From NCBI RefSeq assembly GCF_005406125.1, contig NZ_BIXZ01000003.1:62001-126000 (forward strand): 64,000 nt of DNA, in the 5' to 3' direction. The DNA comes from Haloarcula mannanilytica (GTDB taxonomy: Archaea; Halobacteriota; Halobacteria; Halobacteriales; Haloarculaceae). The first letter of the stretch is position 1. Each line of letters starts with the position of its first letter. Shown in pieces: positions 27,550 to 30,370 of this stretch. The position numbers were made by a program, and so were the translations under genes. The notes under the pieces were generated by a model. That model did no database searches, had not been told where the DNA came from, and saw only the letters and a program-made list of their open reading frames with translations.

Positions 27550-27945
27550 TCAGCAACGAAGGAACTCTCGGCGCTGGTCGCCGAGGGCGCTCTGACCGGT
27601 GACTGCCGTCTTGATGTCACGAGCGAGATTCGAGAGATACGCGCGGGGGCCGGGGTCACACGTCCCAATGTGCCTGGCCTGCCGGTAGTCACAGCAGAGC
27701 GCGACCGGCAACAGCGGGGCGGCGAACAGCCCGGACAGTGTGACCCCCAACTGGAACGGGTGGCCGGCCGGGACGACCAGCCATGCCGCGGCCACGGCCG
27801 CCCAGAACACCACGCCGTAGATGACAGTGTGTCGCCAGTTGTGTACGGGGAGTCCGTACCCGGGCGAGGAAGCGTCGTCCGGCGCGTCGCCAGTGACTGG
27901 TCCACCGGGCGACTCGCCAGTAGATGGGGAAACAGGACAGGACAT
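27550..27945 (-). CDS. small two-helix membrane protein
   Basis: The protein has 131 residues from the ATG at 27,945 (MSCPVSPSTGESPGG); longer frames would cross the divergent promoter. The first 40 residues are Pro/Gly/Ser-rich and disordered. Two hydrophobic segments follow (VIYGVVFWAAVAAAWLVV and FQLGVTLSGLFAAPLLPVAL). The tail holds CCDYRQARHIGTCDPGP, with three Cys near the membrane. It shares a palindrome-containing promoter region with the HTH-10 gene next to it. Confidence 0.6.
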   Translation of the reverse strand: MSCPVSPSTGESPGGPVTGDAPDDASSPGYGLPVHNWRHTVIYGVVFWAAVAAAWLVVPAGHPFQLGVTLSGLFAAPLLPVALCCDYRQARHIGTCDPGPRAYLSNLARDIKTAVTGQSALGDQRREFLRC

Positions 27946-27965: not shown

Positions 27966-28016
27966 TGCTAATCACAACTCGTTTGGCATGCGCCAAATGA
28001 GACCGTGCGTATAAGC
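27966..28016. promoter_or_regulatory. divergent promoter with 24-bp palindrome (operator candidate)
   Basis: A near-perfect palindrome (27,978-28,001) has core TTTGGC-ATGC-GCCAAA and extended arms CTCG/TGAG with one mismatch. It sits between a leftward TATA-like box (27,966-27,976) for the membrane gene and a rightward box TATAAG (28,010-28,015) for the HTH-10 gene, both about 25-30 bases from their start codons. A related copy lies at 29,259-29,279. Confidence 0.7.
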
Positions 28017-28039
28017 CGCTCGACACGCAACGGGAGCAT

Positions 28040-28825
28040 ATGCGAGAGTTCATCTTCACCATCGATTACGAGCGCAACGTCGACCCCGTGATGGACGTGT
28101 TCATCGACTACCCGGAGACCCACTCTCGGACTATCGCGTGCAACGTCACAAAAGACGGGATGTGGCGGCTCGAACGGGTCGCCGGCCCTGAGGCAGCGCT
28201 TGAACAACTGGACGACGTGTACGACGACCCGGTCCAGTGTACCGAGTGCATCGGGACCCGCAACTGCAAAACCGACTGGACGTACGAAGTCATCGGCTCG
28301 GACCCGGGCGTCCGGACGGTGTACAGCTACCGGTCTGAAGCCGGCGACTGTCACTCGATTCCGCGGCTAGCCATCGACCACGTCGGCCGCGGCGTCCTCG
28401 TCGAGACCGAGCGCCGCGGCAGCCGGTGTGAGTGGCGACTGCTCCTCTGTAGCGACGCCGGCGTCGACGGACTGTTCGAGGAGATGGAGTCCGAACTTCG
28501 GGAGGGGCTCACCGTCGAGTTCCGACAGCTCAGCTCGCCGTCGTACTGGGTCGACGAGGCGGTGACGCTGGCGGAACTCCCGCCGGAGCAACAGGCCGCC
28601 GTCGAGGCCGCCGTCGAACACGGCTACTACCGGACGCCGCGGGACATCTCCCTTACCGACCTCGCCGAGACGCTCGACGTGTCGCGGTCGACGCTCCAGT
28701 ACCGCCTCCAGCGGGCCGAAGCGTGGATCGTCCGGTCGTTTGTCACCCGGTCGATGGGGCCGGTCCAGGCCGACGAAGACGTGGCCGAGGGCGGCCGGCT
28801 CCGCATCGGTCGCTCGGGCGTGTAA
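28040..28825 (+). CDS. HTH-10 (Bat-type) transcriptional regulator with Cys cluster
   Basis: The protein has 261 residues. The N-terminal domain (about 1-130) carries CTECIGTRNCKT (about 68-79), a possible redox or metal site, and further Cys in EAGDCHSIP and SRCEWRLLLC. The C-terminal HTH-10 domain (about 195-245; LPPEQQAAVEAAVEHGYYRTPRDISLTDLAETLDVSRSTLQYRLQRAE in parts) binds DNA. The gene is leaderless: TATA box at 28,010-28,015. The palindrome at 27,978-28,001 directly upstream suggests autoregulation. What it senses is not known. Confidence 0.85.
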   Translation: MREFIFTIDYERNVDPVMDVFIDYPETHSRTIACNVTKDGMWRLERVAGPEAALEQLDDVYDDPVQCTECIGTRNCKTDWTYEVIGSDPGVRTVYSYRSEAGDCHSIPRLAIDHVGRGVLVETERRGSRCEWRLLLCSDAGVDGLFEEMESELREGLTVEFRQLSSPSYWVDEAVTLAELPPEQQAAVEAAVEHGYYRTPRDISLTDLAETLDVSRSTLQYRLQRAEAWIVRSFVTRSMGPVQADEDVAEGGRLRIGRSGV

Positions 28826-28843
28826 TCGTCGATAGAACGGATC

Positions 28844-29212
28844 TTAGGCGGTCGACCTGCTTTCGGCGCGAATCTTCTTGCCGATCCCGACGACAACAAT
28901 CGACAGCACCGCGGCGACGACGAAAAACAGCACGTCGCCCCGTGTCACCAGAATCGGGTCGACCTGCGTCACTCGCACGCCGAACGCGTATTCGAGTGCC
29001 TGTCCGAGGCCGATGGTGATTGCGACCGCTGGAACAGCAGCGATACTCAGAACGATGAGCGGGAGCCGCGGAATTTGCTGGAGTATGCTGATAAACGGTG
29101 TCGCCGCATCATGCGTCGACAGCGCGACCAGCGACCCATACGCCAGCGTCTGCACGGCGAACACCACCGCAGTGTGGCGATTCAGGGCGGTGGACCAGCG
29201 TGGTTTCGCCAT
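28844..29212 (-). CDS. small membrane protein, three helices
   Basis: The protein has 122 residues with hydrophobic segments near 14-32, 45-75 and 92-110 and basic ends. It opens MAKPRWSTALNRHTAV. A TATA-like CTTATGTTATC (29,236-29,245 on the reverse strand) stands 25-30 bases before the ATG, so the gene is probably leaderless. The copy of the palindrome at 29,259-29,279 lies just upstream. No family recognised. Confidence 0.65.
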   Translation of the reverse strand: MAKPRWSTALNRHTAVVFAVQTLAYGSLVALSTHDAATPFISILQQIPRLPLIVLSIAAVPAVAITIGLGQALEYAFGVRVTQVDPILVTRGDVLFFVVAAVLSIVVVGIGKKIRAESRSTA

Positions 29213-29258
29213 GTGTCGTAGTGATACGCAGATAACATAAGTGCGCTGCTCAGACGAA

Positions 29259-29279
29259 TTTCGGCGTGTGCCAAACGAG
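29259..29279 (-). promoter_or_regulatory. second copy of the TTTGGC palindrome, tfb divergent region
   Basis: Read on the reverse strand, this site matches the site at 27,978-28,001 at 17 of 21 positions, with core TTTGGC-ACAC-GCCGAA. It lies between the leftward promoter of the membrane gene (29,212) and the start of the tfb gene. The spacing to the leftward TATA is similar to that at the first site. Confidence 0.6.
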
Positions 29280-29350
29280 TCCTCATGCAGGAAGCACCCC
29301 TACAATTGGGTACGACCGCGGGCGTCCCCACGCGCTCGCAGAGGCACACT

Positions 29351-30370
29351 ATGACGACACGCAGCATCTACTCCCCCGACGAACGCGGTGACAGTGTGGA
29401 CGAACAGGCCGAGTCCGAGGAGAGTACCGGCCACGCCTGCCCGGACTGTGGCGGGAGTCTCGTCACCGACGACAGTCGCGGCGAGACTGTCTGCGAGTCG
29501 TGTGGTCTCGTCGTCGACGAGGACGAGATCGACCACGGGCCGGAGTGGCGCGCCTTCGACAGCCAGGAGCGGGACGCCAAGCGCCGCGTCGGCGCGCCGA
29601 CGACCGAGATGAAACACGACAAGGGCCTCTCGACGAACATCGGCTGGCAGAACAAGGACGCCTACGGCAATTCCCTGTCGACCCGCCAGCGCGAGAAGAT
29701 GCAGCGGCTCCGGACCTGGGACGAGCGGTTCCGCACCCGCGACCACGCCGAGCGCAACCTCAAGCAGGCGCTTGGCGAAATCGACCGGATGGGCAGCGCG
29801 CTGGGCGTCCCCGAGAGCGCCCGCGAGACGGCAAGCGTCATCTACCGCCGCGCGCTGGACGAGGGCATGCTGCCCGGCCGCTCCATCGAAGGGATGGCGA
29901 CCGCGGCGCTGTACGCCGCCGTAAGGCAGGCGAACCTCCCGCAGACGCTGGACGACATGGCCGTCGTCAGCCGCGTCGACGAGATGGAGTTCACCCGCGC
30001 GTACCGCTATCTCAACCGCGAACTCTCCTTGCAGGTCGGCCCGCCGGACCCAGCAACCTACCTCAGCAAGTTCGTCTCCGAACTCGACGCCGACGACGCG
30101 CTGGAACGCCAGGCCCGCGCCCTCATCGAGGCAGGGAAGGAAGCGAACGTCCACAGCGGCAAGAGTCCGGTCGGCCTCGCCGCCGCGGCCATCTACGCTG
30201 CCGGCCTGCTGCTCGGCGAGGAGATGACCCAGGAGACCGTCAGCGAAGCGACCGACATCAGCACCGTGACAATCCGCGAGCGCTACCGCGAACTGCTCGA
30301 AGCCGAAGCGGAACTCGACGACAGCGCCGTCGACGCGACGACCGGCGCTGAATCCGGCGCGAGCGCCTAA
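29351..30370 (+). CDS. tfb: transcription initiation factor TFB
   Basis: The protein has 339 residues from the ATG at 29,351, which has GAGG six bases upstream; an in-frame ATG at 29,285 remains possible. The N-terminal zinc ribbon (CPDCGGS about 25-30 and CESCGLV about 44-50) is followed by the B-finger region and two cyclin-like repeats (about 120-205 and 215-305), with SIEGMATAALYAAVRQ and SPVGLAAAAIYAAGLL as the matching helices. TFB recruits RNA polymerase to TBP-bound promoters. Haloarchaea have several tfb genes with different targets; which paralogue this is cannot be said from sequence alone. Confidence 0.93.
   Translation: MTTRSIYSPDERGDSVDEQAESEESTGHACPDCGGSLVTDDSRGETVCESCGLVVDEDEIDHGPEWRAFDSQERDAKRRVGAPTTEMKHDKGLSTNIGWQNKDAYGNSLSTRQREKMQRLRTWDERFRTRDHAERNLKQALGEIDRMGSALGVPESARETASVIYRRALDEGMLPGRSIEGMATAALYAAVRQANLPQTLDDMAVVSRVDEMEFTRAYRYLNRELSLQVGPPDPATYLSKFVSELDADDALERQARALIEAGKEANVHSGKSPVGLAAAAIYAAGLLLGEEMTQETVSEATDISTVTIRERYRELLEAEAELDDSAVDATTGAESGASA

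Follow-up and report, generated by a model that had tools for sequence, protein, structure and literature searches.

A palindrome that occurs twice in the window, the whole 64-kb stretch of Haloarcula mannanilytica DNA analysed here, is more aptly described as a conserved and very probable operator of the HTH-10 protein, by which the regulator would be wired to a dedicated TFB and to a DUF7127 protein. The palindrome is conserved, keeps its place upstream of its genes, is absent together with the regulator, and varies at one base along with one residue of the regulator. From these regularities we infer binding by the HTH-10 protein, the direction of control (activation), the signal, and a downstream step exerted by the TFB. 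The features are listed in Table 1.

Table 1 Positions of the features discussed. Coordinates refer to the window unless a contig is named.
Feature	Position	Strand	Remarks
MP1, small membrane-type protein, 131 aa, divergent from HTH-10	27550-27945	-	membrane nature read from sequence only
Weak TATA-like element of MP1, TGATTAGC (TGATTA)	27967-27974	-	about 7 bp from operator 1; read from sequence
Operator 1, TTTGGCATGCGCCAAA	27982-27997	.	pattern search, 0 mismatches
TATA box of the HTH-10 gene, TATAAGCC (TATAAG, about 28010)	28010-28017	+	12 bp after operator 1; read from sequence
HTH-10 regulator, 261 aa, HVO_2928_N sensor-type domain and HTH_10	28040-28825	+	family scan
MP2, small membrane-type protein, 122 aa	28844-29212	-	orphan of the Haloarcula mannanilytica genome
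Operator 2, TTCGGCGTGTGCCAAA	29260-29275	.	pattern search, 1 mismatch to strict form
tfb, dedicated TFB paralogue	29351-30370	+	TFIIB repeats and zinc ribbon by family scan
Third operator in this genome	C1:639514-639529		one mismatch to consensus
DUF7127 gene (L110, L129)	G000:C1:639571-639819		outside window

The sequence-only reading had named two places for the palindrome, and both palindromes and their positions proved real. TTYGGCRYRYGCCRAA (TTYGGC-RYRY-GCCRAA, with an alternating centre) was found in the 4.2-Mb genome only at operators 1 and 2, with 0.08 matches expected per genome by a base-composition estimate, and TTYGGCNNNNGCCRAA occurred exactly at three places, two of which were the same operators. 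The match claimed for the second copy on the reverse strand was also confirmed from the window sequence, 17 of 21 bases being equal between 27978-27998 and the reverse complement of 29259-29279. Within the 64-kb window alone, a loose pattern with two mismatches gave 2 matches against 0.91 expected, and this number was reached by 21 of 100 shuffles of the window, which is not significant. The rarity of exact sites genome-wide and the absence of any match to a reversed control pattern in the 32 Haloarcula genomes searched rule out a chance origin, though the window statistics alone would allow it. The description of the palindromes as lying between two TATA boxes held for the first site, which has TATAAG on one side and the weaker TGATTA on the MP1 side. 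It held less well for the second, where the tfb promoter showed no clear or canonical TATA at the expected or a comparable spacing, and a weak element about 7 bp after the operator.

The HTH-10 protein matched HVO_2928_N (PF24281) with 227.6 bits against a curated cut-off of 27 (E 8e-68) and, at its C-terminus, HTH_10 (PF04967) with 52.8 bits against a cut-off of 23.1 (E 3e-14). HVO_2928_N was also matched by all 18 aligned relatives. Cys34, 67, 70, 76, and 104 were conserved in 27-29 of 29 clade members; the Cys cluster noticed earlier is thus a conserved one, which makes a metal or redox signal plausible and would fit metal- or redox-sensing by the protein. The predicted structure (mean pLDDT 80) comprised two beta-alpha-beta-beta-alpha-beta units, with a helical HTH at the C-terminus. 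No solved structure matched the protein by sequence. A fold search with the sensor domain returned nothing reliable (best E 1.5e-3, TM 0.39), and that with the HTH part gave weak matches of sigma region-4 type.

An HTH-10 orthologue was present in 28 of 32 Haloarcula genomes. A search upstream of the orthologues, proposed in the sequence-only reading as a check, found the palindrome 57-62 bp before the start in all 28 (26 without mismatch and two with one mismatch), and related forms were seen in other genera and families. In the Haloarcula alignment, most of the defined operator columns at this promoter had about 2 bits, and the flanks mostly far less, TATA excepted.

The tfb gene was found in the same 28 genomes, and the palindrome lay upstream of it in 27 with two mismatches or fewer; L103, from an incomplete genome, was the one exception. 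In the window, operator 2 stands 91 bp before the tfb start. This start (MTTRSIYS) is the conserved one; an in-frame upstream ATG at 29285 is not favoured by conservation. The family scan found a zinc ribbon (PF08271) and two stretches of PF00382 in the product, which scored 364.4 bits with NCBIfam PRK00423.1, below the cut-off of 384. Because all the TFB domains are present despite this score, the product was taken as a divergent TFB paralogue.

The third recurrent exact site in the Haloarcula pattern search lies before the gene of an 83-aa DUF7127 protein. In 25 of 26 genomes, a palindrome with two mismatches or fewer was observed between -54 and -60, usually at -57; in the remaining genome (L141), the gene is close to the end of a contig, with an exact site 57 bp before it. 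Judged by this site conservation, DUF7127 is a third conserved operator target, invisible to the earlier reading. A literature search on DUF7127 found no paper. The likeness of the protein to small heat-shock proteins is an impression from its sequence only. In several genomes, the DUF7127 gene was followed by a gene for a DUF368-like membrane protein.

Four Haloarcula genomes (G099, G100, G107, and G110) lacked HTH-10, tfb, and DUF7127 alike, and two further, incomplete genomes lacked DUF7127 only. The palindrome sites were gone from the genomes without HTH-10, as would be expected from the earlier proposal that the motif is lost with the regulator. The dehydrogenase adjoining MP1 here was present in all four module-less genomes, and in G100 and G107 the module-flanking dehydrogenase and aldolase were near each other, with the module gone. 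The four genomes form two pairs of relatives, with a single loss or origin possible, and therefore do not count as four independent events. Haloarcula genomes with the module have about three conserved sites each.

These distributions also bear on the four-gene regulon proposed earlier, of which three members stood: HTH-10, MP1, and tfb share a very probable HTH-10 operator. MP1 orthologues with 47-86% identity were found in most, not all, of the module-bearing Haloarcula genomes examined, and AT-rich columns were seen at the MP1 TATA spacing across the genus. MP2 was rejected as a member and is not a conserved target. It was not found at the corresponding place in the other Haloarcula genomes searched, and its position between HTH-10 and operator 2 occurs only in the Haloarcula mannanilytica genome; among 96 family genomes its single match (35%) was in another genus (G087). 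Because MP2 is missing there in all other Haloarcula genomes, site 2 has tfb as its conserved target. Neither MP1 nor MP2 matched a Pfam or NCBIfam family.

We consider it likely that a Cys-cluster HTH-10 sensor binds the palindrome, activates the dedicated TFB and DUF7127, and regulates itself. The protein would bind TTYGGC-RYRY-GCCRAA, most likely as a dimer, and its trigger is probably the redox state or a metal acting on the five conserved Cys. Once triggered, it would promote transcription where the operator sits 7-12 bp upstream of the TATA region, that is, at its own gene, the divergent MP1, the tfb paralogue, and the distant DUF7127 gene. With the TFB induced, RNA polymerase would in turn be guided to additional promoters, much as happens in bacteria when an alternative sigma factor is induced. 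The direction of control is suggested by operator placement. In Haloarcula, operator and TATA region were separated by 12 bp at HTH-10, by 8 bp at DUF7127, and by about 7 bp at both MP1 and tfb, whose elements are weak; at each of these four promoter classes the operator thus has a fixed position a few bp before the TATA region. The activator GvpE of haloarchaeal gas vesicle genes, an unrelated protein that is not known to be of the HTH-10 type, offers an analogy. GvpE works from this side too, through an element of 20 nt immediately before BRE and TATA (PMC8241225), which resembles the operator here in position and differs from it in sequence and targets.

The same operators could also be bound by an HTH-10 protein that mainly represses, with the signal derepressing tfb, DUF7127, and its own gene. 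A palindrome near TATA/BRE could indeed block TFB binding, and in other genera the HTH-10 gene has its operator over the TATA/start region, at -22 to -27, suggesting that HTH-10 represses its own gene in those lineages. Against general repression, the operator stands upstream of the TATA region at Haloarcula tfb, DUF7127, and MP1 and at tfb of several other genera, and Bat, NarO, and DmsR, described relatives within the HTH-10 group, are referred to as activators. We regard repression as unlikely, though it is the strongest of the alternatives to activation.

That the HTH-10 protein itself is the binding partner is suggested by residue 216, which lies close to the beginning of the predicted recognition helix. 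Arg216 was found in 13 of 13 genes with symmetrical C half-sites, and Gln, Leu, or Thr in 11 of 12 genes with T half-sites, the single exception (L170) having Arg216. Arg reading G and Gln reading A are common in protein-DNA chemistry. The tracking of the operator base (C or T) by this residue (Arg or Gln) points to HTH-10 as the binder. On a tree calculated from residues 1-200 only, which leaves out the recognition helix, the operator base needs at least three changes, and five by the simplest count. Other protein columns correlated with the base as well as residue 216 did, via clade structure; hence, the covariation is support and not proof. The HTH-10 protein very probably binds the shared operator at its own gene, at the divergent MP1, and at tfb, and the covariation offers a first specificity rule for this HTH-10 family.

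The pairing extends beyond the genus. In other haloarchaeal genera and families too, HTH-10 is found next to a tfb, and related palindromes (TTYGGY-N4-RCCRAA) accompany the pair, often at each of the two promoters. Of 88 distinct HVO_2928-family genes, 17 had both the palindrome and an adjacent tfb, 65 neither, five the palindrome only, and one tfb only (p = 7e-13, a statistic that ignores kinship). All tfb-linked genes fell in one clade with moderate support (82/92). Gene order varied: HTH-10 and tfb are in tandem in Haloarcula and divergent in others, with a palindrome at each promoter, as in L222, L223, and L226 of other families, and at L227 and L246 tfb lies downstream of HTH-10 on the opposite strand. 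At L026/L158, DUF7127 adjoins HTH-10, followed by tfb, and four palindromes surround them. A relaxed core, TYGG-N6-CCRA, was present within 100 bp upstream of 34 of 96 family genes, against two of 96 with the reversed control. The looser TTYGGYNNNNRCCRAA gave no further clear targets in three other genera, control matches being nearly equal in two.

This linkage of HTH-10 and palindrome across families and gene orders also speaks against another regulator as the binding protein, with the HTH-10 gene merely one of its targets. Such a reading could draw on the two further HVO_2928_N proteins encoded in this genome; however, the sites vanish with HTH-10 and residue 216 tracks the operator base, and we judge it very improbable. 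Chance matches or RNA hairpins acting as terminators, for which the loose matches in the window and the closeness of site 2 to the HTH-10 stop codon in some Haloarcula genomes might be cited, are negligibly probable given near-complete conservation against variable flanks, the empty control search, and a constant position ahead of TATA elements, from whose promoters the sites are not transcribed.

Palindromic motifs have been linked to an HTH-10 protein before, and in this respect the earlier statement that no operator of this form was described has to be narrowed. The semi-palindromic CGAAYATDKTYG, for which NarO is the known haloarchaeal regulator, sits 66-79 bp before the start codon at the denitrification promoters of nir, nor, and nos, and motifs of this type occur in 82-83 promoter regions in Haloferax mediterranei (PMC10062603, PMC11218638). 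NarO and DmsR are, like the protein here, HTH-10 (bacterioopsin-activator-like) regulators without PAS/GAF, and are linked to anaerobic metabolism; the NarO-linked motif likewise lies upstream of promoters. The sequences differ, however, the CGAAC-type motif standing against TTYGGC-N4-GCCRAA here, and so the present operator itself still appears undescribed. The targets differ as well: those of NarO/DmsR are respiratory (nar, nir, nor, nos, and dms), whereas the exact Haloarcula sites were at HTH-10, tfb, and DUF7127. Our literature search found no paper on this operator or on an HTH-10/TFB pair, which is weak evidence of absence, since subscription literature was mostly uncovered.

The tfb gene here is one member of the haloarchaeal TFB paralogue expansion. 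Haloarchaea have many such paralogues, which contribute differently to fitness under stress; the work on this describes neither a dedicated regulator linked to a TFB paralogue nor an operator for one (PMC4230888). One paralogue now has a linked regulator, a defined operator with about three conserved sites per genome, and natural presence and absence within one genus, which makes the question of the signals and regulators behind an individual paralogue directly testable. In function, the arrangement would resemble a bacterial alternative sigma factor that has a regulator of its own: a sensor controls a dedicated initiation factor, which would re-aim RNA polymerase. The comparison is one of function between non-homologous systems, and its second tier, promoters chosen by the TFB, is only proposed. 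Whether several haloarchaeal families have a Cys-cluster HTH-10 protein with a dedicated TFB paralogue of its own, the two connected through a private palindromic operator into a sigma-like cascade, with Arg or Gln at 216 setting specificity, is in our estimate evenly balanced.

A recurring site with one mismatch, TGTGGCACGTGCCGAA (e.g., at G000:C5:12957-12972), was seen in most of the Haloarcula genomes listed. It also occurs in genomes without HTH-10 and therefore was not counted as a target; it is probably unrelated to the operator and perhaps coding. A second HVO_2928_N protein (L156, G000:C6:99229-99744) is encoded by an open frame of no more than 191 aa, which leaves no room for a complete HTH-10 domain; other Haloarcula genomes have short copies like it, and the protein is possibly a partner or antagonist without a DNA-binding part. 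For HVO_2928 of Haloferax volcanii, which gave the family its name, an antisense RNA with processing sites has been reported (PMC8303175). Finally, the stretch between operator 2 and tfb (29276-29350) is itself well conserved (GGATGCACCCCTAYAATTGGGTACG in Haloarcula; L079-L106) and could represent a leader or an additional promoter element.
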